A stretch of 64,000 nt of DNA, from contig NZ_FOTQ01000006.1 in NCBI RefSeq assembly GCF_900114635.1, positions 124,001 through 188,000 on the forward strand, read 5' to 3'. Below are positions 2,397 to 48,647 of this stretch, one piece after another. This stretch comes from Shimia aestuarii. Lineage in GTDB: Bacteria > Pseudomonadota > Alphaproteobacteria > Rhodobacterales > Rhodobacteraceae. The notes beneath the pieces were generated by a model, which was not told the origin of the DNA, made no database searches, and saw nothing but the letters and a program-made list of their open reading frames with translations. The position numbers and the translations under genes are program-made. Numbering within the stretch: position 1 is the stretch's first letter; each line of letters begins with the position of its first letter.

Positions 2397-2400
2397 GGCC

Positions 2401-7358: not shown

Positions 7359-7367
7359 GCCAAATCC

Positions 7368-7393: not shown

Positions 7394-7421
7394 ACCATCA
7401 CTCAACATCGGAACGAAACAG

Positions 7422-8522
7422 ATGGAAACCGATTACGCGATTATCGGAGGGGGGATTGTTGGCCTCTCGGTCGCCTGGGGTCTGCTCCGGCGCGGGCGCA
7501 CGGTGACCGTTCTGGACGGTGACGACGGATCGTTCCGAGCAAGCCGCGGCAATTTCGGGCTGGTCTGGGTTCAGTCGAAGGGCATGAACCAACCGCGCTA
7601 TGCCAGTTGGTCCCAACAATCCGCCGCAATCTGGGCCGACTTCGCCAACGAGGTCGCAGGCAACACCGGACAGCCCATCCCGCTTGAGCAAAACGGCGGC
7701 TACGATCTTCATTTCTCTGAAGAAACCTTGGAAGCGACTGTCGCAAAATACGAAAAACTGAAGGCGCAGCTTGGCGGCAATTACCCCTACGAGGTGCTTG
7801 GTCATAATGCGTTACGCAAGGAAGAGCCGCATATCGGCCCCAAGGTGGTTGGGGCGATCCTGCATCACCAGGATGGTCATGCGAACCCGCTGAAACTGCT
7901 GAAAGCGCTGGCCGCTGATGTGCGCCGCATGGGCGGGCATGTGCTGGTGGGCAAGACCGTGACAGATGTGTCAAAGCCGGACGGTTTTCACATCACATGC
8001 GCGGACGGCACGATCGTCACCTCTGGCAAGGTTGTCTTGTCTGCGGGTCTGGGGGCGGCGCAGCTTGGCCCGAAGATGGGGTTCAAAGCGCCCGTCCGTC
8101 CGCAGCGCGGTCAGGTTCTGATCACCGAAAAACTGCCCAAGATGATCAACCGTCCTTCGCTGATTGCCCGGCAGGTGGATGAAGGCGGCATCCAGATCGG
8201 TGCCACGAACGAAGAAGTTGGCCTTGACGACAAGGTCACTCAGACGGGCTTGTCGGGCCTCGCCGCCGAAGCGATTGCCGCCTATCCGGCTCTGGCCCGG
8301 GCGCAGCTGGTACGCAGTTGGGGCGCGTTGCGCGTGCTCTCTCCCGATGGTCTTCCGATTTATCAACAAAGCACCGAGATGCCGGGTGCCTTTCTTGTCA
8401 CCTGTCACAGTGGCATCACCCTTGCCGCTGCGCATGCGCGCCTTTTGCCCGAGTGGCTGGAAGGCACCGATGCAGCGCCAGACCTGGAGGTGTTCAGTGA
8501 AGACCGCTTCTCCGTTTCTTGA
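7422..8522 (+). CDS. FAD-dependent amine oxidoreductase, HcnC / opine oxidase beta-type subunit
   Basis: Catalytic flavoprotein of the DAO family, expected to oxidise the C-N bond of an imported amino acid, sarcosine-like compound or opine to an imine. The 366-residue product starts with a dinucleotide-binding motif (AIIGGGIVGLS) and ends with the typical RSWGALRVLSPDGLPIY and TCHSGITLA stretches of the FAD pocket. It is followed by an HcnA-like [2Fe-2S] protein (26-nt overlap) and an HcnB-like subunit, the arrangement of hydrogen cyanide synthase, octopine/nopaline oxidase and D-hydroxyproline dehydrogenase complexes. Glycine-to-cyanide activity cannot be excluded, but the TRAP and RidA neighbours favour catabolism. 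Confidence 0.82.
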   Translation: METDYAIIGGGIVGLSVAWGLLRRGRTVTVLDGDDGSFRASRGNFGLVWVQSKGMNQPRYASWSQQSAAIWADFANEVAGNTGQPIPLEQNGGYDLHFSEETLEATVAKYEKLKAQLGGNYPYEVLGHNALRKEEPHIGPKVVGAILHHQDGHANPLKLLKALAADVRRMGGHVLVGKTVTDVSKPDGFHITCADGTIVTSGKVVLSAGLGAAQLGPKMGFKAPVRPQRGQVLITEKLPKMINRPSLIARQVDEGGIQIGATNEEVGLDDKVTQTGLSGLAAEAIAAYPALARAQLVRSWGALRVLSPDGLPIYQQSTEMPGAFLVTCHSGITLAAAHARLLPEWLEGTDAAPDLEVFSEDRFSVS

Positions 8523-8796
8523 GCTTGACAATGAGCCACGTGTAAACGTGGTGTTCGATGGCAACGCGCTCAGCTTGCCAGAAGGGGCCAATCTTGCCGC
8601 GGCCCTCATGGCGGCGGGCGTCAATGTGTTTCGCCACACGCCTGTGTCGGGCGCGCCACGCGGCCCGTTTTGTATGATGGGCGCATGTTTTGATTGCCTG
8701 GTCGAGATCGACGGTACCACGAAACAGGCCTGCATGACCGTGGTCACGGATGGCCTCGAGATCACGCGCGCCCACCGCGATGGGGCATTGACATGA
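8497..8796 (+). CDS. [2Fe-2S]-binding small subunit, HcnA-type
   Basis: Small electron-transfer subunit of the amine oxidase complex. The 99-residue product is a ferredoxin-like domain with the cluster cysteines in FCMMGACFDC and QACM, a HcnA-type spacing. The GTG at 8497 is chosen because GGAGG lies 6 nt upstream and it gives a normal HcnA N-terminus; the reading frame is open further upstream, but that would only extend into the flavoprotein gene. The stop overlaps the next start (ATGA). Confidence 0.82.
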   Translation: MKTASPFLELDNEPRVNVVFDGNALSLPEGANLAAALMAAGVNVFRHTPVSGAPRGPFCMMGACFDCLVEIDGTTKQACMTVVTDGLEITRAHRDGALT

Positions 8797-10205
8797 CACG
8801 TTCAGATCTTGTCGTCGTTGGAGCGGGTCCAGCCGGCATGGCCGCCGCCGCGCAGGCTGCCGAGCTCGGCCTCAGCGTCACGGTACTCGATGAGCAAGCC
8901 TGTGCAGGCGGGCAAATCTACCGCGATGTGGACCGTGTTGTACCTTTGCGTGGTGACATACTGGGCGCGGACTATGTGCATGGCACCACGCTGACGGCTG
9001 CTTTGCGGCGTGCTGCGATTTCCCATGTCACCGGTGCAGTGGTCTGGGCCATCGAAGACGCGTTTCGTATCTCTTACACGCGGGAAGGGCGCGGCGTGCA
9101 GATCGAGGCCGATCGCATTCTCCTGGCCACCGGCGCGCTCGAACGCTCGATGCCTTTGCCCGGCTGGACGCTGCCGGGGGTGATGACCGCCGGGGCGGGC
9201 CAGATCCTTCTCAAGCAATCAGGCGTTCTGGCGCGAAATGCCGTTCTGGTCGGTTCCGGCCCGCTGCTTTATCTGATCGCGGCGCAGATGCTGCGGGCAG
9301 GAACCCCGCCCAAGGCGATGATCGAGACCCAATCCCGGGGCGACCTCATCGGCGCAACACGGCATATTGGCGGTGCTTTGCGAGGGGCGAGCTATCTCGT
9401 CAAAGGCTTGCGGATGCTGGCCAGCATTATCCGCGCAGGCGTGCCACGTCATACCGGCGTCACGGATATTGCCGTCGAGGGGACGGACAAAGCAGAGGCT
9501 GTGACCTTTCAGAGCGGAAGGCGGTCCCACCGGATCACCTGTGACACGGTCTTTTTGCACCATGGCGTCGTTCCCAATACCCAGGCGGCGCGATCACTTG
9601 GCGTCACGCACTCATGGAATACGGCGCAGCAATGTTTTGTTCCCCAGCTTGATGACTGGGGCCAGAGTGACAGGGCAGGCGTGTTTATTGCGGGTGATGG
9701 TGCTGGCATTGGCGGGGCGAAGGCGGCGGAACATGCTGGAACTCTTGCCGCGCTTCAGATTGCCTGCGAGGCAGGTCGCCTTTCGCGTGAGGAACGCGAT
9801 CGCCGTGCGGCTGCACCGCGTGCAGGACTCGCGCATGAACTGGCGGCGCGGCCGTTCCTTGATGCGGCTTATCCGCCCTATGCCCCAGCCCTGCTGCCTG
9901 ATGACAGCACGCCGATTTGTCGTTGCGAGGAGGTCACTGCAGGCGATATCCGCAGCTATGCCAAACTGGGCTGTATTGGCCCTAACCAGACCAAGGCATT
10001 TGGCCGCGCTGGCATGGGCCCCTGCCAGGGACGCTATTGCGGACTCAGCGTCACGGCACTATTGGCCGATGCTACCGGCAGAACTCCCGATGAAACCGGG
10101 TATTACCGTATTCGCCCGCCACTCAAACCCGTCACCTTGGGCGAGCTGGCCGGCATGAACATCACTGCGCCCGACACGGCGGAGAAGGAAAAAGCACATG
10201 ATTGA
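8793..10205 (+). CDS. FAD/NAD(P)-binding oxidase subunit with BFD-like iron-sulfur domain, HcnB-type
   Basis: Second flavoprotein of the oxidase complex. The 470-residue product has an N-terminal FAD motif ([14 protein letters not shown]), a second nucleotide-binding segment ([16 protein letters not shown]) and a C-terminal BFD-type [2Fe-2S] domain with cysteines in PICRCEEV and [11 protein letters not shown]. This is the composition of HcnB, OoxA/NoxA and LhpE-type subunits. It overlaps the small subunit by 4 nt and the RidA gene by 8 nt, so the set is co-translated. Electrons probably pass to the membrane quinone pool, as in the known complexes. Confidence 0.85.
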
Positions 10206-11317: not shown

Positions 11318-12925
11318 ATGACGGTCATTACAGATCAAGATTATCCGAAGGGAGCCTCGGGGGGATGGTTGACTTGGGGTCTTGCATGGCTGGTTGTATT
11401 AACAATTTCTTCAGGGTTGTTTTTTCGTGACGGTTTCGACGTATTACTCGATGCATGGAGCAAACCAGAATACAGCCACGGCCCGCTGATCCCTGTGCTC
11501 TCGGCGCTTATGTTCCTGCGGGAACTGAAGCTGTATCCTCCCCAGCCCGGACCAAAGGATGGCCGCTGGCAAGGTCTTCTCGTCGTTGTCCTCTCAATTG
11601 TCATTGCAAGTATGGGGAGGATTTTCAATGCTGACTCTCTTACAGCCTATGCAATCATCGTTTGGGTTGGCGGTGTCCTTCTGATCAGTTTCGGCTGGCG
11701 GACAGGTAAGCATTTTTGGCCGCCTGTGCTTCATCTCGTGTTCATGCTGCCTTTGCCGGGTATGCTCTACTACGAGGTGTCCGCTTTTCTGCAGCTTGTT
11801 TCTTCCGAGTTGGGGGTCTGGTTTCTCAGGCTCGCCAACGTTCCGGTCTATCTCGACGGGAATATCATTGATCTTGGTGTCATCAAGTTGCACGTCGCGG
11901 AGGCTTGTTCTGGTCTTCGATACCTTTTCCCAATCCTCAGCTTTTCGTATGTTTTTGCATTCCTTTACCAAGGTCCGAGATGGCATAAAGCCTTGTTGCT
12001 AATTGCCGCCGCACCTATCGCCGTACTCATGAATTCCTTGCGGATCGCAATGGCTGGGATCTTGATGCAGCGTTTTGGGGCCGAGTGGCTCGAAGGCTTC
12101 ACTCATTTCTTCGAGGGGTGGGTCATCTTCATGTGCAGCGTGTTGCTCCTTTTTGGAATTGCTTGGGTTTTGCTGAAACTCAATCCGCGGAAGATGAAAC
12201 TGACCGAGGCGCTCGATCTCGATACGCAAGGGTGGTTGCCGCAAGTTGCTCGTCTCAAGCTTGTGCAACCTTCCCCCGCGCTGATTGCAGCGGCGTTACT
12301 GATGATCATATCAGTAGGTTCTTGGCCATTGGTGCCGGATCGTGAACCTGTCGCTCCTGAACGATATGACTTTGCTTTGTTCCCTTCGCAAATTGGCGAT
12401 TGGCGTCAATTTGGAGATGAACGTAAGTTCTCCCCCGCTGTAGAAAAAACCTTGGCTGCAGACGACTATTTGGCTGTGCAGTTCAGCCAGTCGCCAAGTG
12501 CACCGAAACTAGATTTCTTTTCTGCATGGTACAGGGATTTGTCAGCGGATGGCGTGCAACATACGCCCGAAATCTGCCTGCCTGGCGCGGGCTGGGAAAT
12601 TGCCAAAGTGGAACGAGTCGATATTTCTGGCGAACTGGGATTGCAAACCCCGTTTGCGATCAATCAGGTCATTATCCAGAAAAACGAAGAACGGATGTTG
12701 GTGTATTACTGGTTTACTCACATGGGCCGGGCGATGCCCCGGAACTCATCCGCTAAACTTAGTGTTCTGACGCGAGGTGTATTAGCGGGTCGGTTGGATG
12801 GGGCCATTGTCAGACTGATAAGCCCGATCAATAAAGATCAGCCGGTATCCGAAGTGAAAGTTCAGATGAATGATCTGCTGAATGAGATCCTAGTTGAATT
12901 GCCGCGGTTCGTTCCGGGCAAATAA
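11318..12925 (+). CDS. xrtD: Exosortase with fused EpsI domain, XrtD (VPLPA-CTERM) type
   Basis: Polytopic inner-membrane transpeptidase-like enzyme that recognises a C-terminal sorting tail on secreted proteins. The 535-residue product has about eight membrane segments in the first 290 residues, with the predicted catalytic residues Cys197 (AEACSGLR), Arg242 (MNSLRIA) and His263 (FTHFFEGW). Residues about 345-535 form an EpsI/DUF3485 domain (SAWYRDLSADGVQHTPEICL, YYWFTHMGR). Fusion of these two domains is what I know for the XrtD class of Rhodobacterales. No protein with a VPLPA-type tail was found in this window, so targets must lie elsewhere. A GGAGA ribosome site precedes the ATG. Confidence 0.85.
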   Translation: MTVITDQDYPKGASGGWLTWGLAWLVVLTISSGLFFRDGFDVLLDAWSKPEYSHGPLIPVLSALMFLRELKLYPPQPGPKDGRWQGLLVVVLSIVIASMGRIFNADSLTAYAIIVWVGGVLLISFGWRTGKHFWPPVLHLVFMLPLPGMLYYEVSAFLQLVSSELGVWFLRLANVPVYLDGNIIDLGVIKLHVAEACSGLRYLFPILSFSYVFAFLYQGPRWHKALLLIAAAPIAVLMNSLRIAMAGILMQRFGAEWLEGFTHFFEGWVIFMCSVLLLFGIAWVLLKLNPRKMKLTEALDLDTQGWLPQVARLKLVQPSPALIAAALLMIISVGSWPLVPDREPVAPERYDFALFPSQIGDWRQFGDERKFSPAVEKTLAADDYLAVQFSQSPSAPKLDFFSAWYRDLSADGVQHTPEICLPGAGWEIAKVERVDISGELGLQTPFAINQVIIQKNEERMLVYYWFTHMGRAMPRNSSAKLSVLTRGVLAGRLDGAIVRLISPINKDQPVSEVKVQMNDLLNEILVELPRFVPGK

Positions 12926-12943
12926 CTGCCTCAGGGCTTCTGG

Positions 12944-12964
12944 AAGTTTGACCGCGCCAAACTT
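12944..12964 (+). terminator. Weak hairpin after exosortase gene
   Basis: Inverted repeat AAGTTTG / CAAACTT with a 7-nt loop, 19 nt after the exosortase stop. No T run follows, so terminator function is uncertain. The rest of the gap to 13202 shows nothing recognisable. Confidence 0.35.
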
Positions 12965-13202
12965 TGGGGCTGGACTGCGCTAACAGGATTGCTCTGAGGT
13001 CCAACTTTCTGCCGCTCCGGGCTAAAGCTTTCTGCCTTCTCTCAGCGTGGCGGGTTGGTTTCGCCAAGCGAGTTTGCCAGTATGTCTGTAGGACATTCCC
13101 GGTGGCGCTGTGAGTTCTCTCTTGCAGAGCGTCGACCCAGGCATTCTACAATACGAGATGAGGGCAGACAATTATGAGGCCACATCGAATGGGTGACAGC
13201 TT

Positions 13203-13841
13203 TTGCGACTGATTTCATACACAATCGTTCTTGCCTATAGACTACTTTCTATTGTCGGAGCCGCCGCGTTGTTTTTGGCCTTTCTTCTTTTTACCTTCAT
13301 GTATCGGACCAACGAGTATGAAACGCGGGTAGCGCTTCCACCGACAGCAATTGTTTTCACAGGGGACTTTGACCGCATCCATCTGGGGCTGGAGCTTCTT
13401 GTTTCAGAGCAGGTGGAGCGGGTGTTCATTACCGGAGTGAATGGAGATGCGGGCCTGAAAACCGATCGCTTTGCTAAGCAGTTTGGGTTGAATCCAGACC
13501 AGGCAAGTTGGATCACAAGCGGGAAGATCGTACTTGCCCCAGATGCTCATACGACTTTCGAAAACGCTCTCGAAGCCGCATGTTGGTTGGATAATCAACG
13601 TCAACCCGACGCCGTTACGCTTATCACTTCGCCCGAGCACATGGCGCGCGCGTCGATCGCGTTGCAGCGGGGGATTGCCCCTGTGAATGTGTTCCGTTTG
13701 GCTGCAGGGGACCCCAAAAACCATGACCGATTCAAAATTGATCTAGTCGAATTCAGCAAATTCACCGCTACATGGGTCGTCACTCTGCTTCCTCGTGCAC
13801 TATGGCCTGGAAATAAACCAAGGATCTGCGAAAATCGTTGA
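13203..13841 (+). CDS. YdcF/DUF218-like membrane protein of the exosortase block
   Basis: Predicted envelope protein of 212 residues with one N-terminal membrane segment (about 8-33) and a DUF218-like domain: TAIVFTGDFDRIHLGLEL, VFITGVNGD, then TTFENALEAACWL and LITSPEHMARASIAL. DUF218 proteins (ElyC, SanA, YdcF) are linked to envelope polysaccharide metabolism but have no settled reaction. The start used is TTG at 13203, as no ATG lies before the membrane segment; this start is uncertain. A second DUF218 protein is encoded at 30029-30811. Co-occurrence with exosortase genes is common. Confidence 0.7.
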   Translation: MRLISYTIVLAYRLLSIVGAAALFLAFLLFTFMYRTNEYETRVALPPTAIVFTGDFDRIHLGLELLVSEQVERVFITGVNGDAGLKTDRFAKQFGLNPDQASWITSGKIVLAPDAHTTFENALEAACWLDNQRQPDAVTLITSPEHMARASIALQRGIAPVNVFRLAAGDPKNHDRFKIDLVEFSKFTATWVVTLLPRALWPGNKPRICENR

Positions 13842-14355
13842 AGCGGTGCGCTTCAAACAGACATTCATCCCAAGCTGTGGCGACAAGTGGTTCATTCACA
13901 GGGCGGCAGACGTGTCTGCGGCATTTTTGTGCACTTTCGCCGTGTTGCGCGGGTTTTTGCTTCCCCGTCAAGGCCCGCCTTGCCACGCACGCAGTTTGAA
14001 GATACTTCCCAATGCAACACGGGGACAGATCGACACAGGCAAGACAAAATGGTGCAAAAAGACACCTTGTTAGGACGGAGCGCGCACGTGAGCACTGCGT
14101 ACCTGGCAAATCCGCAGCTAAATTTTCCAGTTCAGACAGAGGCGCGTGCCGGTGCGGTTGTACCGATAGAGTCTTAGCACGCAATGTTGGCACGGTTTGT
14201 ATCCCAGAAGATGCAAAACTCGCGCATTTTCCGCGACGCCGCTGTCAAAAAATGAATACAAAATAACTCACGTTTTCCGTCACATTTTTGCCCAACTACC
14301 AATAAACACTGGGCATCAAGGTTATTTATGCAACCAGATGAGATCGGAGGGCAGG
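13842..14355 (+). other. 514-bp non-coding gap before the aminotransferase fusion
   Basis: No supportable gene. Short readings exist on both strands but lack family features. The last about 120 bp before 14356 are AT-rich and probably hold the promoter; a clear ribosome site CGGAGGGCAGG lies directly before the ATG at 14356. Confidence 0.5.
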
Positions 14356-17004
14356 ATGTCAAGTCTCAACCCAACACGCGCGAACCTACTTGAAACTTTC
14401 GGCTTGGATCTTGAGCTGGTACGCGGCGATGGCTGTCGGCTATATGACGCTGATGGTCGTGAGTTTTTGGATTTTCTTGCACAGTACGGTGCATTGCCAT
14501 TTGGACACAACCCTCCGGAAGTCTGGGAGGCCCTGAACGGCCAGGGGGCTCAAATGGCTCCGGTCATGGTGCAACCGCTGCGCGCCCTTGAAGCAGAGCG
14601 CCTGGCCGACAGGTTGGCAGACATTACCCCTCATGATCTCAGCGTCGTGTCATTGGCGAACTCGGGTGCTGAAGCGGTCGAGGCGGCAATCAAGCTTGCC
14701 CGCGCGCGCACTGGACGAGACACCATTCTCTCGACCCGCAATGGGTTTCACGGCAAAACAATGGGCGCCCTTTCTGCGACTGGCAAACCCATGTACCAGA
14801 ATGACTTCGGCGGACCAGCCCGCGGCTTTGAGTACATCGCATTTGGCGCGCTCGAAGCGCTTGAGACCAAGCTCGCCGCCGACGCAGACAGCATCGCGGC
14901 ATTCATTGTCGAACCAATCCAGGGCGAAGGCGGCGTAGTCTGCCCGTCCGATGAGGCTTATCTCGATGGTGTCATCGCACTCTGCCGCAAGTATGGCGTG
15001 CTAAGCATTGTTGACGAAATCCAAACAGGCCTTGGTCGAACAGGCAAACTCTTCGCGTGTGAAGACTGCGCAGAAGCGCCAGATATGCTGCTTCTCGGCA
15101 AGGCATTGGGCGGTGGTTTGATGCCAATTTCTGCTGTTGTTGTCCGGCCGGAAGTCTGGGACGACCGCTTCGGCTTCCTGCACAGCTCGACCTTTGCGAA
15201 CAACAACCTTGCATGCGCCGCGGCAAATGCCACGCTCGATCTTCTCCTGAAGGACGACCGCGCGTTGATCAAGGACATCGAACTCAAGGGCCGCTATTTT
15301 GAAAACTGCCTTGAATCACTCAAAAAGCGTTATCCCGGAGTTCTGGCAGACGTGCGCGGGCGCGGCTTCATGCGCGGTATTGAATTTCGCAAACCATACG
15401 AACGGGGCGATTCCGCATCCATGGCATTTTGCGGACTGAACGGAGGATTCATCGGGCTTCTCAGTTCCTACCTCCTGAATGTTGAAGGTGTCTTGACGGC
15501 TCCGGTTTTCAATGATGCCAACGTGATGCGCCTGCAGCCGCCGCTTGTCGCTGGTTGGGCAGACATCGACAAGTGTGTCAAAGCGCTGAATATCGTCTGT
15601 GACTTGCTTGATCGAGGCGACTACCGCGCGCTGATGTTGCACCTCGTGACGCCAGAGCGTCGCGAAATACTGGCCGCTTCCGCGCCGTTGTTGCCCCAGC
15701 AGGGGCCAGCGAGGAATGTGCCAGAGGCCGAACCCGGGCGTTTCTGCTTCCTTATCCACTACACTCAGGAAGAAGATATCCTGCGGTCCGACCCTTCTTT
15801 CGCCCGCTTCACCTCGGAAGAACGCGCCACTTGGCTCGAGTGGGTCAAGCGGGTTGGTCCGGGCTTCGCTTGGCCGGTCGCCGGAGGAACCTCTCGTGCA
15901 GGAACAAAAGCGGAAGGCATGATCATGTCTGTACCGCTTTTGCCGACGGACATGATGGGCAAAGGCCGCAAAAATGCGCGCAACATGATTCAGACAGCAG
16001 CCGATATGGCGGCTGGCTTCGGAGCAAGTCGTCTTGGTCTCGGCGCCTTCACGTCTATCGTGACCAATGGTGGCGCCGCGGTTGCAGGCCGCGGTGTGCC
16101 CGTTACCAGCGGCAACACTCTTACCACGGTATCCGGCGTGACTGCTCTTGAACGTGTCGCACGGCGCGTTGGAATTGACCCAGCTAGCGCGCATGTCGTC
16201 GTGATCGGCGCCACCGGCGCGATCGGCCGGTTGGCAAGTCTGATGCTTGCGCGTCGAGCAGACCGTTTGACTCTGGTAGGCAATGCCAACAACAGACAGG
16301 CCCATCACTTCCTGGACCGGGTCGCTGACGAAGTTGTATTTACTCTGTCCAAGGAGAGCCCGCCCCTGAGAGCCGGTGGACTGAGCTCCAGTGTACGTGA
16401 CTTGCTTCCTCCGCAAGGCACGGCAATGGAAAAAGGCGTTGCAAAAGCATTCGCACAAGCCTGCGCTGAAAATGGTCGGGCAGTCCCAATTGCCGCGACT
16501 ACCGATCTGGAAGGCGCGCTTGAAACGGCGGACTTGGTGCTGGTCGCGACCAGTGCAGACGTCGCAGTACTTGATCCGACGAAACTTCGCCCGGGGACAA
16601 TCGTATGTGACGTGGCGCGGCCCGCCAATGTTGAATACGCAGATCTGTCAGACAAAGGCGTGCTCGTGTTCGATGGTGGCCTTGTCAAACCCCCGTTTTC
16701 CGTAAACCTCGGCCCCTTCCAGAACCTTCCGGATGATCTCTGCTGGGGTTGCCTTGGCGAAACGATGCTTCTGGCTCTTGAGGGTGAGACGAACGATTAC
16801 AGCCTCGGACGGGATCTGGACCTCAGCGATGCGGACCGAATTTCCGAGATGGCGCGTCGACACGGTTTCGAGCCGGCCGAACCGCAATGGTACGGAGAGT
16901 ATCTGGAGGAAGCGGACTATGAACGTGTGGCAATAGCAGCGATGCAGCGTCAGACCCCCGACAACTCTCAAATGGTTTATGCAAGTTTGAAGGCTGCCGA
17001 GTAA
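14356..17004 (+). CDS. Class III aminotransferase fused to acyl-ACP-reductase (AAR)-like domain
   Basis: Predicted bifunctional 882-residue enzyme. Residues about 1-440 form a PLP-dependent class III aminotransferase with the NSGAEAVEAAIKLARA motif, EPIQGEGG, the DEIQTGLGRTG segment and a likely PLP lysine at 249 (LLGKALGGG). Residues about 515-860 resemble cyanobacterial long-chain acyl-ACP reductase: the TSGNTLTTVSGV segment, a Rossmann motif GATGAIG at 618-624, CDVARPANV, and GCLGETM with Cys799 aligning with the AAR catalytic cysteine. An acyl thioester could be reduced to an aldehyde and transaminated to an amine in one protein. The ATG at 14356 is supported by GGAGG. It stands alone between the YdcF-like gene and a convergent secreted protein. 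Reaction and substrate are inferred; the two domain assignments are firm. Confidence 0.8.
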   Translation: MSSLNPTRANLLETFGLDLELVRGDGCRLYDADGREFLDFLAQYGALPFGHNPPEVWEALNGQGAQMAPVMVQPLRALEAERLADRLADITPHDLSVVSLANSGAEAVEAAIKLARARTGRDTILSTRNGFHGKTMGALSATGKPMYQNDFGGPARGFEYIAFGALEALETKLAADADSIAAFIVEPIQGEGGVVCPSDEAYLDGVIALCRKYGVLSIVDEIQTGLGRTGKLFACEDCAEAPDMLLLGKALGGGLMPISAVVVRPEVWDDRFGFLHSSTFANNNLACAAANATLDLLLKDDRALIKDIELKGRYFENCLESLKKRYPGVLADVRGRGFMRGIEFRKPYERGDSASMAFCGLNGGFIGLLSSYLLNVEGVLTAPVFNDANVMRLQPPLVAGWADIDKCVKALNIVCDLLDRGDYRALMLHLVTPERREILAASAPLLPQQGPARNVPEAEPGRFCFLIHYTQEEDILRSDPSFARFTSEERATWLEWVKRVGPGFAWPVAGGTSRAGTKAEGMIMSVPLLPTDMMGKGRKNARNMIQTAADMAAGFGASRLGLGAFTSIVTNGGAAVAGRGVPVTSGNTLTTVSGVTALERVARRVGIDPASAHVVVIGATGAIGRLASLMLARRADRLTLVGNANNRQAHHFLDRVADEVVFTLSKESPPLRAGGLSSSVRDLLPPQGTAMEKGVAKAFAQACAENGRAVPIAATTDLEGALETADLVLVATSADVAVLDPTKLRPGTIVCDVARPANVEYADLSDKGVLVFDGGLVKPPFSVNLGPFQNLPDDLCWGCLGETMLLALEGETNDYSLGRDLDLSDADRISEMARRHGFEPAEPQWYGEYLEEADYERVAIAAMQRQTPDNSQMVYASLKAAE

Positions 17005-17226: not shown

Positions 17227-18798
17227 TCATGGCTTCTCCTTGCGACGAAGAGTCGGCATTCGCGCGTCGCCACGATTGATCTCGTAGAAGCGAGATTGGT
17301 TTTCCTCGTCATGAGGAACAAAGCTAGCGCTTGTATCCCCTGTGTTCTGACGCTCCCACCCCAACAGCTTGCCATCTGCGGCGTAACGCGCTGTGTCTGT
17401 CCAATCAGCCGACCAAAAGAGTAGCGGGTCCAAGTATGCACCTCGCACTTTTGCATCGTAATCGATGGAGACAAGCCGCTTCTCAGCCTGATCGACGGCT
17501 TCATATCTCCGAACTTGATGTTCGGGGAAATCAATAGAGATAATTGCTGGGGCGCTATCGAGTTTGCCGTTATTCGCGAAAACTCCGATATCCACCCGCG
17601 AAAACTGGCGCAGTTTCTGTTTCTTTTTCTTGCCGGGAACAGGTTCGGTCCAGGGATCGTGCCACGCAACTCGAATTTTGGCTGTGGCTCCATTCCCTCC
17701 TTGAGGTTCAATCCAGACGCGCTGCGGATCGCCTCGCAACAACCGCCACTCAAAGGTTAGAGGCCGATCATTTGGTTCGGATGTATCTTCTGCGGTAACG
17801 AGCAACTCTCGCTCCCAGGCAAAACTCCGCCAAATTCGCCCGATTGCGGAGGGCGTGTTTACAAGGCGCTCCTCCAGTCCGGCCAGCCCCCCGGCTTCAG
17901 AAAATTCCTCGTCGACGACCCGCAACCGAACCAGTGGCGGAATGTCGTCAGGTTGCAAACTCGCAGCCTGAGCCACCATTCTGCCCGTTTGAACAAGTCG
18001 ACCTTCGAACACAGTCGGATGTGCCTTGCCTGAAAGGTAATCTTCTCGGGTCGCAACATTCTGCAAATTGCGGCGCAAGATCATCTGAACAGTGGGGGCA
18101 ACAAGACGTTCTTTTCGCAGGAATTCAAAAGTGTCGCTTGGCAGAGCCGCCAACGTCATCGCTACGGCGTGAAGAAACCGCTTGTCCGAGCCAGATGACC
18201 CCTGACTGATAATCATGTATGGCCAGTTTACAGGATAGCGGTCCTCAGCATCGTGATCGCGGTGCTCAGGATAGACATAGATACAATTGTTTTCATACAG
18301 AGTCGGCGTGACTGCGCGCCAAAAAGCACTGGTCATTGCCAGACGGGGCAGGCTACGCGGCGCAGCCCCCGTCCTGACCGCAGTAGATGAATTCCCCAAA
18401 ACCACCGCCGGGAGAAAAATGCGACCGGCGAGGCCAACGTCGAGTCCGGCATCAGAAAATTCGGAACTGTACTTCAGAAAGGTTAGTCTGGGGTAAAGGT
18501 TCGGATCCAGAGAAGAGTGACCACGATCGCGGTTGTCATATAGCACCCCCGCAAGTCCACTTATTTCACTTCGACTCGCAATAATTCTCAACAACCGTGC
18601 ACCTTCATCGGTGTGGTCGTCTGCTACGATTGGCAGTTTCGCGCCAGAAGCCGGGAGCTCCAGTCCTGATGCCAGCCAAACCCCAGGGCGAAACTGAACG
18701 ACTTCTCTCTCTGTCAAAACTACTTCAGCGGCCTGAGCTACCAGGGGCAAAAAGAAACTGAAAAAGATAAGCTGCAGCGCTTTGAGCAGAGAAATCAT
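17227..18798 (-). CDS. Secreted protein of unknown function in exosortase block
   Basis: I do not recognise this 523-residue protein. It has a signal peptide (hydrophobic residues about 5-22, then VAQAAEV), so it is probably periplasmic or exported. The first half contains a nucleoside-hydrolase/DUF1593-like flavour (VADDHTDEGARLL, GLAGVLYDNRDR), and the second half has an Ig-like-looking stretch (RPLTFEWRLLRGD, AKIRVAWHDPW). It is the only gene of the block on the minus strand, convergent with the aminotransferase fusion and divergent from the Wza-like gene. It has no VPLPA-type tail, so it is unlikely to be the exosortase target. Polysaccharide processing is possible but not shown. Confidence 0.65.
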   Translation of the reverse strand: MISLLKALQLIFFSFFLPLVAQAAEVVLTEREVVQFRPGVWLASGLELPASGAKLPIVADDHTDEGARLLRIIASRSEISGLAGVLYDNRDRGHSSLDPNLYPRLTFLKYSSEFSDAGLDVGLAGRIFLPAVVLGNSSTAVRTGAAPRSLPRLAMTSAFWRAVTPTLYENNCIYVYPEHRDHDAEDRYPVNWPYMIISQGSSGSDKRFLHAVAMTLAALPSDTFEFLRKERLVAPTVQMILRRNLQNVATREDYLSGKAHPTVFEGRLVQTGRMVAQAASLQPDDIPPLVRLRVVDEEFSEAGGLAGLEERLVNTPSAIGRIWRSFAWERELLVTAEDTSEPNDRPLTFEWRLLRGDPQRVWIEPQGGNGATAKIRVAWHDPWTEPVPGKKKKQKLRQFSRVDIGVFANNGKLDSAPAIISIDFPEHQVRRYEAVDQAEKRLVSIDYDAKVRGAYLDPLLFWSADWTDTARYAADGKLLGWERQNTGDTSASFVPHDEENQSRFYEINRGDARMPTLRRKEKP

Positions 18799-19369
18799 AC
18801 CTTAAGCTTGGCAAAATCCCCAGCTTGTGTCCATTGGCCTGTGTCCATCGTGAGGCCGCATTTGAGGCTGCGTTCCAAAAACCTTGGCTTACGTGTTTCA
18901 ATTCTTCCACCGCACCGAACGCCCAGGTCGCAAAAGGCGGCAAGCGGCATTGCTTGACTGGGTGCAATCATTCGCGACGTGCAAGGCGTTAAACACTTCC
19001 AGCTAAACCCGACCTCCGCGCGTCGGACCTTCCCATCGTTGCACATTCCGTGTCCAAGGAGCGTGCCATCCACGATGAGCCACTGGTGCGGCACAGGCAA
19101 GACTTCAGATCGTCGACGGGCTTGTTCCAGAGCCGATGGTTGCCGAATGAATGTGCCTCGCATTGCTTTCAGAACCTCTAAATTTGGTCGCCAATTGATT
19201 CCTATGTGCAACACATCCAAAAATCCGACTGCGCGGCAATTGCCAAAATGGCGCCAAATTGCTCACAACTATGTTTAACTTGAGACTCGCGGCGCAGCGG
19301 GCGAATTCTTGACGAAACGCGCCGGATGCGTAAACCAGAATGATCGGATGTCATAAAATGGAAGTGCAT
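18799..19369. other. 571-bp divergent intergenic region
   Basis: It separates the minus-strand secreted protein from the plus-strand export lipoprotein and probably holds both promoters. Readings on both strands (up to 141 codons on minus) are cysteine-rich, low in family likeness and overlap one another, so I do not call a gene. No repeat of note. Confidence 0.45.
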
Positions 19370-20500
19370 ATGAAACGCATGCCCCGCATTTCGAAGCACC
19401 TGATTATTGCTACGATGGTAGCAACACTCGGCGCTTGCGGCATCCCGCGGCCCGGCCCCAACAATCAAGAAATTCTTAGCCTCCAGGAAAACCCAACTAC
19501 GGATACACACGTCGTTTTTGTGGACAGGCGTATTACCAAAGCGGTCGCAGTTACTCCTGTAAGCGGATTTCCCTCAAGCTTGACCCGGGCCCAAAACCAT
19601 TCAGCTGATCGAATTCGTCCCGGCGACACGCTATCAGTCAGCATTTTTGAAAATGTCGATGACGGCGTACTCAGCCGAGGGGGCGCGGGGGTTTCGTCTC
19701 TTGAGTCCCTGCAGGTGGACGAAGATGGTTTCATTTTCATACCTTATGCTGGCCGCATCCGAGCCATTGACAATTCACCTGAGCGGCTGCGTACGCTGAT
19801 CACCTCCAAGCTGAGCACCCTGACACCAGAGCCGCAGGTTTTGGTTCGGCGCGCAGCTGGCGACGATGCGACAGTCTCTGTGCTCGGAGACGGCATTGCC
19901 TCGCAAGGGGTCTATCCGCTTCAGCGCTCCAACCGCAGGTTGATGGAGATGCTCGCAAACGCTGGTGGTATTGCCGCAACGCCAGAAACCACGAGAGTTA
20001 TCGTTTTGCGGAACCAAACCAAAGGCGAAATATGGTTTGAGGACATCTACGACAATCCAGCCTATGACATTGCATTGCAGGCTGGCGACCGTGTCGTAGT
20101 GGAACGGGACCCACGCATGTTCACGGTCCTTGGTGCAACATCAAAACAGGCGAACGTGCCTTTCGAAAAACGAGAGCTTTCGGCGCTTGAAGCGGTCGCG
20201 CAGGTGGGTGGCCTGGACGGCAGAACTGCCAATCCGACTGGTTTTTTTGTGATCCGAGAGCAAGGGCCACAAATGACCAACAAAGTGCTCGGTCGACATG
20301 ACCTCGCCGGCAATCAAACTGTTGTCTACGTGATTAACCTCACTGAGCCTGCAGGCCTGCCGCTCGCGCAAGCGTTCGACATTCGAGACGGCGACACTAT
20401 TTACGTAACCGAAGCGCCGTTTACGCAGTGGACCAAGACACTTGACGCGATTACCGGAACGACACGAGTTGCGGCCACGTTCCAAGCTGCTGGTTTCTAA
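19370..20500 (+). CDS. Wza/GfcE-like polysaccharide export lipoprotein
   Basis: Outer-membrane/periplasmic channel component for capsule or EPS export. The 376-residue product starts with a lipoprotein signal ending at a lipobox (VATLGAC), then a polysaccharide-export (Poly_export) domain beginning IRPGDTLSVSIFENVD and SLBB-type repeats (VSVLGDGIASQGVYPL, FTVLGATSKQANVPF). The ATG at 19370 is preferred over upstream ATGs because GGAAG precedes it at 5 nt and the signal peptide starts there. A tyrosine-kinase co-polymerase (Wzc) partner is not present in the window. Confidence 0.88.
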   Translation: MKRMPRISKHLIIATMVATLGACGIPRPGPNNQEILSLQENPTTDTHVVFVDRRITKAVAVTPVSGFPSSLTRAQNHSADRIRPGDTLSVSIFENVDDGVLSRGGAGVSSLESLQVDEDGFIFIPYAGRIRAIDNSPERLRTLITSKLSTLTPEPQVLVRRAAGDDATVSVLGDGIASQGVYPLQRSNRRLMEMLANAGGIAATPETTRVIVLRNQTKGEIWFEDIYDNPAYDIALQAGDRVVVERDPRMFTVLGATSKQANVPFEKRELSALEAVAQVGGLDGRTANPTGFFVIREQGPQMTNKVLGRHDLAGNQTVVYVINLTEPAGLPLAQAFDIRDGDTIYVTEAPFTQWTKTLDAITGTTRVAATFQAAGF

Positions 20501-20927: not shown

Positions 20928-23378
20928 GTGCGCATTCGAAGCCAAATTTCTCCCGCGATCCTTCTGTTAGTATGCACCATCTCACTTTCCGCCTGTAAAT
21001 CAGCGGAGGAAAGAGCAGAGGAACACTTTCAGAGCGCTATTGCATTGATAGAAGAAGGTGACACTGACCGCGCTATCGTTCAATTGCGAAACGTCTTTGA
21101 CCTCAATAGCAGCCACAAAGCTGCGCGCCGCGCCATGGCTCAGCTTCAACTCGAACGAGGGAACCGCAGGGGCGCGTATCGACAGTATCTCTTCCTGGCA
21201 GAGAAGTATCCAGAAGATCTGGAGAGCCGGATTGTACTAGCCGAGTTGGCCTTCCTAGTCAGCAATTGGGATGAATTGGATCGGCACGGAGCTCAGGCTG
21301 AGAAACTGGCGCCAGAGATGCCCCGAGTGAAGGCCATTTCCTTGGTGCGCAAGTATCGCGCAGCCATCGAAAGTAACAAGCCTGCAGAGCGGCGAGAATT
21401 TGGGCGCCAAGCTGATGCAATGCTCGGCGAGCAACCTGAAAATAGTCTGTTGCGCAACGTTCTCATTGATCATGCAATTAGAGAGCAAGATTTCACCCGA
21501 GCGCTGGCCGAAACTGATTGGTTGATCGCTCACGATCCGACAAATAGCCAATATTACCAAGAGCGCTTGCGGCTATTGGCAACGCTTGGCGACATGGCTG
21601 CACTGGAAGCGCAACTCATCGAAATGATGGAAATTTTCCCGGATGAACCAGCGCACAAAGATACACTCATTCGCTTCTATGTTTCACGAAACGACTTGGA
21701 CTCGGCCGAAGCAATTTTGCGGGACTTTTCCAACAATTCCGCGCCAGAAGAAACCGGCCCGACACTTGATCTGATCCGCTTCCTTAGCGAGTTTCGCGAG
21801 CCAGAAGTCGTGCAGGCGGAAATTGAAAAAGCTATCGCTGAACGTTCTGATCCAGTCCCCTTTCATGTCATAAGAGCACAATTCGACTTCACTCAGGGAA
21901 ACCATGCGGAAGCAATCGAGACGCTTCAAACGGTTTTGGCAGAGGCCGAACCCTCAAAACAGACTCATGACATCAAGATCACCCTGGCGAAAATGCTGCT
22001 CGCCACAGGCAACGAGGTTGGCGCCCGCACCCGTGTTGAAGAGGTATTGGCAGAATCCAAGACGCATCCTGAGGCACTCAAGCTAAAGGCATTCTGGCAG
22101 ATCAACGCCGACGACACCGACGCGGCCATTCTTGGCCTTCGAACCGCTTTGGATCAGTCACCGCGAGATGCCGAGGCGATGACCTTGTTGGCCGGTGCTT
22201 TCGCGCGCGCGGGGCAGCCGGAGTTGGCCAAGGACTTCTTGGCCCAAGCAGTAGAAGCATCCGGAAATGCGCCGAAAGAATCCCTTCGCTACGCCCAACT
22301 ATTGATGCAAGAGGAAGCCTACCTCCCTGCAGAAGATATTTTGCTGTCGGCACTGCGTCTCGCGCCTTCCAACGTCGATATTTTGGTCACTTTGGGCGGG
22401 CTATATCTGCAGGTGGAAGATTTCGGCCGCGTTCAAAGTGTCGTGGGCGCCTTGCGGCGCACTGGCGAAGATGCGGCAATCCAAGCCGCCAACACTATTG
22501 AGGCTCGGCGCTTGGCCCGACAGCAGGGTATTGGTGAGGCCATGTCATTCCTCGAGGACTTGGCGAGTAATACCGACGCGACGCTCACCACAAAGATCTA
22601 CTTGGTTCGCGCCAAACTCAGAGCCGGTGATGTTGCTGACGCCCTTGATCTCGCTCTCGGGTTGAAACAGGAAATCCCGGACAACGAGACGTTGGACGTT
22701 GTCCTCGCAGTTGTTCATGTAGCGAATGGAAATCTGTCCGAAGCCGAGGCTCTGTATCGCGAGTTGCTCGACTCTGACCCAGCTCGGCCAGGGATTTGGC
22801 GTGAATTATCCAGGGTGCAGCAGCTAAAGGGAAATCGTGAAGCGGCCAAGGCCATGATTGACGAGGGTCTGGTCCACACTCCCAACAACCCGGACCTTCT
22901 CTGGTCCAAGGCCTCTTTTGCTGAGCAAGATGGTGATATTGATGGGGCTATCGCAATCTACCAAACCCTATACGAGATCAATTCAAACTCAATTGTCGTG
23001 GCCAACAATCTGGCAAGCTTGCTCGCCACTTATCGTGACGACGACGCCAGCTTGGAACAAGCCTGGATTATCGGTCGGCGGCTGCGTGACGCCGACGCCC
23101 CGGCACTGAAGGACACCTACGGCTGGATTCTTCACAGACGCGGCGACAGCGCCGATGCGCTGCCTTACCTTGAAGCCGCCGCGCAAGGGCTTCCTCGTGA
23201 TGCAATTGTTCAATTCCACCTGGGCCAAGTTTTGATGGCTCTGGATCGTCCTAAGGATGCTCTTGAGCAATTTCGCAAGGCAGTCGAGATCGCCGGCCCG
23301 GCCAATACAAGTCCACAGATCGAAGAGGCCAGAACCTTGGTGCAAAGCTTGAAAAACGACGGCTCTTCCGAGAATTGA
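20928..23378 (+). CDS. PrsT-like TPR-repeat lipoprotein of the exosortase/EPS system
   Basis: Large envelope lipoprotein of 816 residues with a signal peptide and lipobox (TISLSAC), followed by tandem tetratricopeptide repeats along nearly its whole length, for example EEGDTDRAIVQLRNVFDLN near 42 and DRPKDALEQFRKAVEIA near 779. This matches the PrsT family (PEP-CTERM system TPR lipoprotein) found beside exosortase genes. It probably acts as a protein-protein scaffold in the periplasm for polysaccharide export or sorting. The start is GTG, supported by GAGG 7 nt upstream. An AlgK-like scaffold is the alternative reading. Confidence 0.8.
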   Translation: MRIRSQISPAILLLVCTISLSACKSAEERAEEHFQSAIALIEEGDTDRAIVQLRNVFDLNSSHKAARRAMAQLQLERGNRRGAYRQYLFLAEKYPEDLESRIVLAELAFLVSNWDELDRHGAQAEKLAPEMPRVKAISLVRKYRAAIESNKPAERREFGRQADAMLGEQPENSLLRNVLIDHAIREQDFTRALAETDWLIAHDPTNSQYYQERLRLLATLGDMAALEAQLIEMMEIFPDEPAHKDTLIRFYVSRNDLDSAEAILRDFSNNSAPEETGPTLDLIRFLSEFREPEVVQAEIEKAIAERSDPVPFHVIRAQFDFTQGNHAEAIETLQTVLAEAEPSKQTHDIKITLAKMLLATGNEVGARTRVEEVLAESKTHPEALKLKAFWQINADDTDAAILGLRTALDQSPRDAEAMTLLAGAFARAGQPELAKDFLAQAVEASGNAPKESLRYAQLLMQEEAYLPAEDILLSALRLAPSNVDILVTLGGLYLQVEDFGRVQSVVGALRRTGEDAAIQAANTIEARRLARQQGIGEAMSFLEDLASNTDATLTTKIYLVRAKLRAGDVADALDLALGLKQEIPDNETLDVVLAVVHVANGNLSEAEALYRELLDSDPARPGIWRELSRVQQLKGNREAAKAMIDEGLVHTPNNPDLLWSKASFAEQDGDIDGAIAIYQTLYEINSNSIVVANNLASLLATYRDDDASLEQAWIIGRRLRDADAPALKDTYGWILHRRGDSADALPYLEAAAQGLPRDAIVQFHLGQVLMALDRPKDALEQFRKAVEIAGPANTSPQIEEARTLVQSLKNDGSSEN

Positions 23379-45604: not shown

Positions 45605-46692
45605 TGCCTACGGTATTGCATCTTATCCCTTACGACACGGTTGGAGGAGTGGAAACGGCTGCTCGGTCTGTTCCGGCGACTTGGGACGGGGCGGCAGGTC
45701 CGGTTCGCTATCGCCGTGGCTACCTGGTGACACATTCACCGGTCGATGTGTTCCCGGACGATTGGCATGGGGCGGCAGTATCGGTCAATCGTCCTGATGC
45801 GCACTGGAAACTATTGCGGTTTGCCTTGGAGAGCCGCCCAGATTTGGTTGTTGCATCGCTTTGGCGAAGTTGTCCGACGCTGATTGCGTTAAAATTTCTT
45901 CGCCCGCGAACGAAATATGTTTTGTTTCTGCATTCTGCAGTTGATGTCCATGTATTCGACAAGGTGTTGAACCGAGTGGCCATGTTCATCGCGGACGAGA
46001 TCTGGGCGGACTCTGAAACGACACTGGCTGCGCGGGTTCCCTCGAAGGTACGCGAGCGAGCGAAGGTACTATCGTTTTTGACACAAAGGCCCCCATACCT
46101 TCCAAATGCCCGGGAAAAAGATCCGGAAAGACCAATTGCACCAAATTTTGTCTATTGGGGGCGTTTGCAATCTGAAAAGAACCTTGGTCTGGCGCTCGAA
46201 GTGTTTGCGGCTGTTCATCAATTGTTGCCCGACTCCAAGTTCGACATTTTTGGCCCGGATCGCGGTTCGCTTGATGAGTTGCAAGAGCAAGTGGCCGAGT
46301 TGAAACTTGGCGACGCTGTGCGATTTCTCGGTGCTGTGCCCCAGGAGGACTTGTTGACGAATGCTTGCGGATACAGTTTCTACCTGCAGACCAGCCTTTT
46401 CGAAGGGATGGCCATGTCAGTTATCGAAGCGATGGCGATGGGGTTGGTACCAGTGGTAACACCTGTGGGCGAGATACCCTCTTATTGTCACGATGGGCAT
46501 ACCGGAATTCACGTCACCACATCGGGAGAAACCGCGCAACGGATCGTCGAGTTGATCTCCCAGCCAGGCTCTTGGCGTGAGATGTCGTCACGTGCGGCAG
46601 ACAGATGGGCTGAGGCGAGGTTGTTTCAGGATGACTACCGCGATGCCTGTGACAATCTTCTTTCGAGAAATCAGGCAGGGGGGGGCACGTAA
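45604..46692 (+). CDS. GT4-family glycosyltransferase
   Basis: Predicted GT-B transferase of 362 residues, beginning MPTVLHLIPYDTVGGVE. The donor-binding region is YLQTSLFEGMAMSVIEAMAMG (about 258 onward, with the EX7E pair), and FVYWGRLQSEKNLGLALEVF marks the linker. A GTG at 45601 directly before the ATG is an alternative start. The last codons include a run of eight G (46678-46685) that also serves as the ribosome site of the asparagine-synthetase-like gene, whose ATG overlaps this stop (TAATG). Confidence 0.87.
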   Translation: MPTVLHLIPYDTVGGVETAARSVPATWDGAAGPVRYRRGYLVTHSPVDVFPDDWHGAAVSVNRPDAHWKLLRFALESRPDLVVASLWRSCPTLIALKFLRPRTKYVLFLHSAVDVHVFDKVLNRVAMFIADEIWADSETTLAARVPSKVRERAKVLSFLTQRPPYLPNAREKDPERPIAPNFVYWGRLQSEKNLGLALEVFAAVHQLLPDSKFDIFGPDRGSLDELQEQVAELKLGDAVRFLGAVPQEDLLTNACGYSFYLQTSLFEGMAMSVIEAMAMGLVPVVTPVGEIPSYCHDGHTGIHVTTSGETAQRIVELISQPGSWREMSSRAADRWAEARLFQDDYRDACDNLLSRNQAGGGT

Positions 46693-48647
46693 TGTGTGGA
46701 TTGGCTGGTTTTGCTTTGTTCCGCCCTTTCGACGAAGCCGCTCAGGCGCGCGATACGTTGCAGAGTATGACCCGGTCAATACAACATCGAGGCCCCGATG
46801 CTGAAGGCCACTGGCTAGATGAAGAACATGGCGTCGCGCTCGGTCACAGGCGACTGTCGATCCTAGACTTGAGTCCAACCGGCGCACAGCCCATGGAGTC
46901 GCCTTGTGATCGTTACGTTATCGTTTTTAATGGTGAAATATACAACCATAGATCTATGCGCCAAAAATTGGAGCAAGGTGCGCCGGGTATTGCGTGGAGT
47001 GGCCATTCAGATACAGAAACACTTCTTGTTGCCGTTGCCGAGTGGGGGGTGGAACGCGCTCTCAAAGAATCCTTCGGAATGTTCGCGGTCGCACTTTGGG
47101 ACAGACAGAAACACGTTCTTACGCTTGCGCGGGATAGGATGGGGGAAAAACCTCTCTATTATTCGAACCAAGACGGGAAGTGGATTTTCGGTTCTGAGTT
47201 GCGTGCATTGCGGGCGGGGGGAATCAAGACGCAGGTCGACCAAGCCGCACTCGCTTCGTATCTAAGGATTGGCTACGTGCCGGATCACCTTTGTATCCTC
47301 GAGGGTGTTCACAAGGTAATGCCTGGCAGTATCGTGCAATTGCGTGCTGGCTCGAAACCAGTCCAGATGCGCTATTCTGCGGTCGAAACGCAATTTGGCC
47401 AGCCTGCCACCATAACCGATACCGATGAGGCCGTTGCGCAACTGGAGAGCGCCCTTGATGAGGTGGTGAGCGAACAGATGCTCAGCGATGTACCGTTGGG
47501 GTGCTTTCTGTCTGGCGGCGTTGATTCCTCTTTGGTTGCCAGTTTGATGCAGGCCGGCTCTGACAAGCAGATTCGAACATTTTCTATTGGCTTTGACGAT
47601 GCTCGGTTCAACGAAGCGCCCCATGCTGCCGCTGTGGCCCGGCACCTAGGCACGAACCACACAGAGTTCATACTCACAGAAGATGATGCTCTGGCCATCA
47701 TCGCGGACCTGCCTCGCATTTATGATGAGCCATTCGCCGATAGTTCGCAGATACCGACCACATTGCTTTGTCGCTCTGCGCGCAAACACGTTACCGTCGC
47801 ATTGACCGGCGATGGTGGAGACGAAGTCTTTGGTGGATACAACCGTCACATCCGCGGACCCAAAATGTGGGAGCAGATTTCTCGGCTTCCTAAAGTCCTA
47901 CGCAACATTGGTGCCGGGGCTGTCGGAAGTGCTGCGCGGTTTGGATTGCGGAACGAACGAGTGTCTCGGAATGTGATCTCAATTCTGGGTCTTCCACTCA
48001 CAACATTGGATAACCTGCCCAAACTCGCTGCGGCACTTCGTGCAACGGGTGACGCAGAAGAGTTCTACCAGATATTTATTGCGGCTGGGCAACTTCGGGA
48101 TTCCGCACTGCGCGAAACTATTCCACCAATAGCCTCTGACTCGCGGGCACTGAATCCGTCGGGATTAGACTTGGCAGAATGGATGATGGCACGTGACATG
48201 ACCGGCTATTTGCCCGGCGACATTTTGGTCAAGGTGGATAGAGCGGCCATGAGCGTTGGTTTGGAAACGCGTGCGCCGTTTCTGGATGCGCGGGTAGCAA
48301 ATCTGGCACGACAAATCCCTATTGGGTTTCATGTAGATGGTCGCACCGGCAAGAAGTTGCTCCGAGAGCTGCTTTACCGCCATGTTCCGCAAGCATTGAT
48401 CGAACGTCCAAAGCAAGGCTTCGCAATGCCCTTGGATGATTGGCTGAGAGGGGCCTTGTACGAATGGGGTTCGCAGTTGATTGCGGACACGGAAACGATT
48501 TCAAATTTGGGTCTGGATGCAGGTTTCATTGAAACTCTGTGGGAGCGACATCAAAAACGGCGGGTAAACGCGGGAAAAGAGGTGTGGGCACTTCTGATGT
48601 TGCTATTGTGGGCAAGAGATGTCGGTATCGGAAGGCCGGTTTGCTAA
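46692..48647 (+). CDS. asnB: Asparagine synthetase-like glutamine amidotransferase
   Basis: Two-domain amidotransferase of 651 residues. The N-terminus MCGLAGFALF exposes the glutaminase nucleophile Cys2; RGPDAEG and the glutamine pocket follow. The C-terminal synthetase domain has the ATP pyrophosphatase loop LSGGVDSSLVASLM near 270 and TGDGGDEVFGGYNRH near 377. In EPS and exosortase loci such proteins are thought to amidate uronic acids of the polysaccharide rather than make free asparagine; this fits the uronic-acid genes at 25.5-27.9 kb. It is the last gene of the coupled chain. Confidence 0.88.
   Translation: MCGLAGFALFRPFDEAAQARDTLQSMTRSIQHRGPDAEGHWLDEEHGVALGHRRLSILDLSPTGAQPMESPCDRYVIVFNGEIYNHRSMRQKLEQGAPGIAWSGHSDTETLLVAVAEWGVERALKESFGMFAVALWDRQKHVLTLARDRMGEKPLYYSNQDGKWIFGSELRALRAGGIKTQVDQAALASYLRIGYVPDHLCILEGVHKVMPGSIVQLRAGSKPVQMRYSAVETQFGQPATITDTDEAVAQLESALDEVVSEQMLSDVPLGCFLSGGVDSSLVASLMQAGSDKQIRTFSIGFDDARFNEAPHAAAVARHLGTNHTEFILTEDDALAIIADLPRIYDEPFADSSQIPTTLLCRSARKHVTVALTGDGGDEVFGGYNRHIRGPKMWEQISRLPKVLRNIGAGAVGSAARFGLRNERVSRNVISILGLPLTTLDNLPKLAAALRATGDAEEFYQIFIAAGQLRDSALRETIPPIASDSRALNPSGLDLAEWMMARDMTGYLPGDILVKVDRAAMSVGLETRAPFLDARVANLARQIPIGFHVDGRTGKKLLRELLYRHVPQALIERPKQGFAMPLDDWLRGALYEWGSQLIADTETISNLGLDAGFIETLWERHQKRRVNAGKEVWALLMLLLWARDVGIGRPVC

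Follow-up and report, generated by a model that had tools for sequence, protein, structure and literature searches.

A predicted fatty-amine synthase gene linked to the XrtD exosortase system and to one VPLPA-CTERM protein family in Rhodobacteraceae

The window analyzed here, a stretch of 64,000 nucleotides from the 4.23 Mb genome of Shimia aestuarii (contig C9:124001-188000), carries an exosortase gene, a gene for an aminotransferase-reductase fusion protein and an exopolysaccharide (EPS) cluster (Table 1). A sequence-only reading of the same DNA had described an XrtD-type exosortase with an intact Cys/Arg/His triad and, 1.4 kb downstream, an 882-residue fusion with recognizable catalytic motifs, and both descriptions hold. 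The exosortase, whose C-terminal part is an EpsI/DUF3485-type domain (matches to PF09721 and PF11984), has its triad at Cys197, Arg242 and His263. The fusion combines an aminotransferase domain (Aminotran_3, PF00202, 315.9 bits; PLP lysine at Lys249) with a reductase domain that has GATGAIG at residues 618-624, CDVARP at 751 and GCLGETM at 798, the last of these including Cys799. The earlier listing of these two genes was correct, but it had left out the DUF218 gene that lies in the 1.43 kb gap between them. The fusion is read from the ATG at 14356, which follows GGAGGG; its open frame begins earlier, with a TTG at 14197.

Table 1. Features of the window discussed in the text (positions within the 64,000-nucleotide stretch)
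Feature	Position	Strand	Remarks
XrtD exosortase (VPLPA-CTERM-specific)	11318..12925	+	535 aa; TIGR04152 593 bits, above the cut-off of 400
DUF218 protein	13203..13841	+	PF02698 35 bits
Transaminase-acyl-ACP reductase fusion, TamH/PigE kind	14356..17004	+	882 aa; predicted fatty-amine synthase
Protein without known family, secreted-looking by eye	17227..18798	-	523 aa
Wza-type polysaccharide export protein, XrtD-linked EPS cluster	19340..20500	+	PF02563, SLBB
PrsT-like TPR protein, XrtD-linked EPS cluster	20928..23378	+	TIGR02917 192.5 bits, below the cut-off of 312.2
Asparagine-synthase-like amidotransferase, resembles XrtA/PEP-CTERM amidotransferase	46692..48647	+	TIGR03108 508.8 bits, below the cut-off of 816.9; PF00733

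The EPS cluster downstream of the fusion comprises the Wza-type and PrsT-like genes, EpsG, an epimerase, TviB, glycosyltransferases and sulfotransferases, and the XrtA-system-like amidotransferase of this cluster recurs in L011 and, by similarity to the L011 gene, in L009. The 523-residue protein encoded on the opposite strand gave zero NCBIfam or Pfam matches at E 0.001. At the other end of the window, an apparent sigma-54-type regulator is followed by hydrogenase maturation genes (positions 1-3438, by eye). The LysR/TRAP/FAD-oxidoreductase block directly upstream of XrtD (3502-10205) has a counterpart of 68-89% identity on a Leisingera plasmid (L025, 19902-26529), where this counterpart is near a distant (31%) transaminase-reductase fusion; the shared block may be mobile or may reflect chance.

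Judged by its sequence, the fusion belongs to an already known kind of enzyme, the TamH/PigE type that converts acyl-ACP to amines. Its best solved relative is PigE of prodigiosin synthesis (E 1.7e-111), which has both domains in the reverse order, and the best curated match is also PigE (NCBIfam NF053554), at 557.6 bits in four pieces against a cut-off of 850. The reductase part further matches the cyanobacterial acyl-ACP reductase (AAR) chain 6jzq (E 1.4e-17), with a cysteine aligned at the active-site motif. The nearest named relatives of the window fusion come from Roseovarius, Marivita and an unclassified Rhodobacteraceae isolate. In an alignment of fusions (the window's and 11 homologues, with identities from 80% down to 31%), 12 of 12 retain the PLP lysine, the reductase cysteine and the GxxGxxG motif, and the homologues thus show no loss of the catalytic residues. 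TamH, from the tambjamine cluster of Pseudoalteromonas tunicata, is reported to make a C12 amine from C12-ACP with NADH and glutamate and to have a catalytic cysteine in its reductase (PMC9594044), and further transaminase-AAR fusions of the PpKT type have been described (PMC10829540). For PigE, one account argues for reductase and transaminase chemistry, with activity in lysate and none with the purified enzyme (PMC8341465). The window fusion shares with TamH and the PpKT-type enzymes an N-terminal class III transaminase followed by a C-terminal AAR-like thioester reductase; however, it differs from TamH in having no visible TamA-like adenylation-ACP partner and in being located among exosortase and cargo genes, not in a pyrrole or alkaloid cluster. 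No ACP was seen in Pfam scans of the window, scanning the 10 fusion loci with about 54% identity or more for an ACP motif returned only a thioesterase and an RTX-like frame and no ACP partner, and the window scans and two annotated plasmids showed no PKS or adenylation gene. The earlier suggestion that the fusion could make a fatty amine is supported by the enzyme kind, which has been shown to turn acyl-ACP into amines, and the fusion probably does so. A structure model of the fusion (mean pLDDT 41.2) was too poor to use.

The fusion occurred in 2, and XrtD in 53, of 248 Rhodobacteraceae genomes (both at E 1e-100), and both fusion genomes were among these 53. A draw of 394 genomes contained four with the fusion (E 1e-75); XrtD, which was sought in the 248-genome draw and in these four, was present in all four, for which the chance at the background rate, assuming independence, is about 0.002 (0.01 without the window's genome). 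Within the window's genus, 1 of 25 genomes had the fusion (E 1e-60) and 2 of 25 had XrtD. Co-occurrence of the fusion with exosortases, proposed earlier as a check, is thus observed (4/4 fusion genomes vs. 53/248 overall), and the association of the fusion with the exosortase system exceeds what chance would give. Because a class-wide draw yielded the fusion in only 1 of 337 genomes, the window's own (E 1e-75), the linkage of more distant fusions was judged from plasmids only. Nine plasmid records carried a fusion and five were looked at: that of a Paraburkholderia plasmid (39%) was accompanied by neither XrtD nor a VPLPA tag, and a Leisingera relative (31%, one of five such Leisingera records) was found in a different setting, near an adenylate-forming enzyme, pabB and an AHL synthase.

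The ten fusion loci (about 54% identity or more) were compared for the genes around the fusion. XrtD lies within 8 kb of it in six, namely the window, L009, L010, L011, G159 and L022, and Wza, PrsT and DUF218 genes accompany the two in several of these six, in shuffled order. The DUF218 gene (53-64% identity) is kept near the fusion in L010, L011 and G159, the Wza-type gene is common to the same three, the PrsT-like gene to these and L022, and the gene for the 523-residue protein (59-64%) lies close to the fusion in L010 and G159 and at a distance of about 7 kb in L011. No XrtD was found within about 13-18 kb on each side of the fusion in L021, L023, G320 and G378. XrtD is encoded elsewhere in the genomes of G320 and G378; L021 and L023 are plasmids, for which the XrtD search covered the plasmid stretch. 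In an XrtD tree of 32 rows, the six linked enzymes, that of G378 and four from fusion-less genomes formed one fully supported clade. The G320 enzyme fell outside this clade, so that the fusion is accompanied by XrtD enzymes of more than one lineage. It should be kept in mind that our shared-gene table undercounts, its overlap filter having missed the L021 cargo and several G159 and L022 genes, which were instead counted from separate comparisons. Two further observations concern individual loci: the Rhodovulum plasmid L022 carries both an XrtE and an XrtD (1091-2665 and 22147-23751), separated by about 20 kb in which the fusion and cargo are located, and in Haematobacter L021 the fusion is followed by a selenoprotein-B-like reductase gene (17810-18736) that, in the shared-gene table, is shared only with G320.

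While the exosortase link proposed from the sequence is real, the closest genetic partner of the fusion is one family of VPLPA-CTERM proteins, not XrtD itself. This family, referred to here as the cargo, was found with a C-terminal tag scan followed by BLAST among the tagged proteins, and the tagged proteins beside the fusion all belong to it. The cargo gene is near the fusion in eight of the ten loci: in seven within 95-752 bp, either in tandem (L010, L011), divergent (L021, G320) or convergent (L022, L023, G378), and in G159 at 8.4 kb. The eight loci represent seven lineages, because L021 and G320 have most of their neighborhood in common. Gene order is shuffled between loci and the fusion-cargo pair mostly persists, including in L021, L023, G320 and G378, which have no XrtD or EPS-cluster genes nearby; searches of these four stretches found none of XrtD, Wza, PrsT, EpsG and DUF218, and own-genome queries found none of the rhomboid, ATPase, chain-length protein, kinase and sugar transferase. 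By eye, the pair of L023 and that of G378 are surrounded by housekeeping genes. In L009, the contig ends 684 bp before the fusion, so that half of the flank is missing, and the other flank (10 kb) contained no cargo, only a different VPLPA-tagged protein. In the window's genome the cargo (G000:C18:666190, 44% identical to that of L010) is located on another contig, in a second XrtD-type block with a rhomboid, two more VPLPA-tagged proteins, a PEP-CTERM-type ATPase, a chain-length protein, a kinase and a sugar transferase; therefore, the system appears to be split in two in this genome.

The tripartite tag is plain in nine of nine cargo proteins, and those of L021 and L022 carry the annotation VPLPA-CTERM protein, although scores with the tag model TIGR03370 (19.5 bits for the window genome's cargo and 21 for that of L010) are below its cut-off of 25.35. 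The window's genome has one VPLPA-CTERM protein above the tag-model cut-off, on C15, and three more recognized by eye on C18. VPLPA is followed by Ser or Thr in 9/9 cargo proteins and in 4/5 weak relatives, and by Gly or Ala in 10/10 other VPLPA-tagged proteins of the loci scanned; this difference may reflect family descent only or may be a recognition mark. Comparisons of the cargo domain with Pfam (best E 0.0065) and with solved chains (best E 0.92) revealed no known family and no relative, respectively, and a known fold was rejected on these values; the structure model (mean pLDDT 35.6) was too poor to use. Beside the cargo gene of the window's genome (L076 7326-9137, G000:C18) there are tandem near-copies (86%) of another VPLPA-tagged protein, on both of which the curated tag model is silent. 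Rhomboid genes were also encountered in these neighborhoods: a rhomboid protease adjoins XrtD in 9 of 20 fusion-less loci (L028, L035-L038, L040-L043), a rhomboid is beside the cargo in four fusion genomes (the window genome's own, L076 10963-11631; L010 7752-8444; L011 7663-8298; G159 5370-6020), and that of L022 (5360-6052) is about 12 kb from the cargo. The four rhomboids scanned scored 26-35 bits with the rhombosortase model, whose cut-off is 84.

The specificity of the fusion-cargo link was assessed with two cargo alignments. The first, searched against the 394 genomes, contains rows of the fusion genomes themselves; it matched four genomes strongly (E < 1e-60), all with the fusion, and gave weaker matches in G192, G067, G007 and G032 and to a second copy in G320. 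The second was built from L010, L011, L022 and L023 only; the 55 genomes searched with it were the 53 with XrtD in the 248-genome draw, together with G320 and G378. With this leave-out profile, the four fusion genomes were matched at 1e-35 to 1e-41, and none of the other 51 XrtD genomes strongly: three had matches at 1e-13 to 1e-16 and 48 had none at 0.001, a split for which 1/C(55,4) = 3e-6. The cargo was found in one of the 25 genomes of the window's genus, the window's own, which is also the one with the fusion. In the reverse direction, the L022 cargo was searched against 72,556 plasmid records and matched four, of which three (one being the query's own) are the three plasmids with a 54-57% fusion; the fourth, from Palleronia (36%), has no annotated fusion within 15 kb. 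The weak relatives in G192, G067, G007 and G032 have VPLPA tags in genomes without the fusion, and G032 is also without XrtD. The profile and plasmid controls thus associate the core of the cargo family, and not its distant relatives, with the fusion. In a Mantel test, the distances among fusions and among cargo proteins correlated with r 0.52 only (58 of 5000 permutations as high), which lends weak support.

With these data in hand, we lean, at somewhat less than even confidence, toward the hypothesis that the fusion synthesizes a fatty amine on behalf of one dedicated exosortase cargo, perhaps by supplying the XrtD acceptor so that the cargo would end in a C-terminal alkylamide. Under this hypothesis, the C-terminal domain would load an acyl chain from a carrier protein onto Cys799 and convert it to the aldehyde by NAD(P)H-dependent reduction; the source would probably be acyl-ACP of fatty acid synthase, because no dedicated ACP was seen nearby. 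The PLP domain (Lys249) would then aminate the aldehyde, and the resulting long-chain amine could pass through the inner membrane without help. On the basis of gene linkage, this amine may be used together with the XrtD pathway on one secreted VPLPA-CTERM family. In the last and least certain step, by analogy, XrtD would cleave the cargo tag via a thioester on Cys197 that the amine resolves, leaving a C-terminal N-alkylamide as a lipid anchor. We regard this specific proposal, that is, a long-chain alkylamine as exosortase acceptor and one VPLPA-CTERM cargo ending in an N-alkylamide, as rather unlikely; it would amount to a new lipidation and the first identified acceptor.

Several findings speak against a dedicated-cargo role. 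In the 248-genome draw, 51 of the 53 XrtD genomes have no fusion, and hence XrtD works without it; a universal acceptor role for the amine is unlikely and was ruled out on this count, and with it the earlier idea that the amine is the general acceptor for exosortase-processed proteins. Further, the window's genome has at least three other VPLPA-tagged proteins, which leaves cargo-specificity of the amine unexplained, and its cargo is on another contig than the fusion. The amidotransferase of the window cluster would suit an amino-sugar acceptor, and an amino-acid-modified sugar has been suggested as the acceptor in PEP-CTERM systems (PMC7468200). Finally, the weak cargo relatives, including that of Palleronia, occur without the fusion.

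Known systems offer partial parallels to the dedicated-cargo hypothesis. Archaeosortase A with PssA/PssD (Haloferax, Methanosarcina) is likewise an exosortase-like enzyme linked by gene neighborhood to amine-lipid synthesis; it is reported to have been tied to archaetidylethanolamine synthesis by neighborhood first and then by deletions, and its authors call the model of archaetidylethanolamine as acceptor speculative (PMC7157517). However, the lipid there is archaetidylethanolamine as opposed to the simple alkylamine predicted here, and the closest link here is to one cargo, not to the sorting enzyme. Similarly, VesB of Vibrio cholerae, which is processed by rhombosortase, is reported to carry glycerophosphoethanolamine (PMC6219818); C-terminal tag processing and an ethanolamine-containing moiety on the cargo resemble the proposal, although rhombosortase is an unrelated serine protease and the amine there is of phospholipid type. 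The window's genome resembles the usual XrtD/VPLPA-CTERM system in its XrtD, which scores above the cut-off, in its EPS genes and VPLPA-tagged proteins, and in a rhomboid gene similar to that adjoining XrtD in 9 of 20 fusion-less loci; the predicted fatty-amine synthase and the paired cargo are additions to it.

Alternatively, the amine or a derivative might be a surface or matrix compound, with the VPLPA-CTERM protein as its carrier, receptor or binding protein and XrtD sorting with another acceptor. This would account for the fusion being linked with a single cargo family and not with XrtD generally, and it fits with the need of fusion-less exosortase systems for another acceptor and with the XrtA-like amidotransferase in the window cluster. 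However, the cargo domain belongs to no binding or enzyme family detectable at the Pfam and solved-chain values given above, and no exporter or tailoring gene stood out among the families common to the loci (in a table that undercounts); we consider this alternative doubtful. Still less probable is a role in the synthesis of a small natural product, with the fusion producing another amine, e.g., one that cyclizes as in the pathways to prodigiosin MAP or koreenceine. PigE, the best curated match, yields a cyclic pyrrole precursor, a Pseudomonas relative is reported from an alkaloid cluster (PMC10829540), and the Leisingera setting described above could be read in the same way, but the ACP scan near the cargo-linked fusions and the search for PKS or adenylation genes in the window and the two plasmids, as reported above, yielded no natural-product partner. 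Lastly, although the fusion lies inside the XrtD/EPS cluster in the window, L010, L011, G159 and L022 and beside XrtD in L009, it is very improbable that the fusion simply travels with an EPS island and has nothing to do with protein sorting, and as the sole explanation this was rejected, since the four loci without the searched XrtD/EPS-cluster genes keep the fusion-cargo pair and the pair mostly stays together where gene order is shuffled. The same four loci also weaken the earlier suggestion that the amine is a lipid anchor for the EPS, as neither XrtD nor EPS-cluster genes were found in the stretches examined.

The 2006 proposal of the exosortase system calls the exosortase nucleophile unknown (PMC1569441), and a 2020 study refers to the exosortase product as an unidentified compound (PMC7468200). 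The sequence-only reading knew of no description of the fusion-exosortase link, and in the literature searched (titles and the starts of abstracts, with most subscription journals outside the search) we likewise found none of a link to an exosortase or its cargo; the enzyme kind, on the other hand, had already been described, as TamH and PigE. The pairing of an amine-making enzyme with one exosortase cargo is therefore new, as far as this literature goes. Accordingly, a small and rare gene pair offers a concrete acceptor candidate and one protein to examine for it. Should the acceptor hypothesis be true, the lipidation of the cargo would be of a new kind; should it be wrong, the pair remains an example of a TamH-type enzyme that works outside the pigment and alkaloid pathways.
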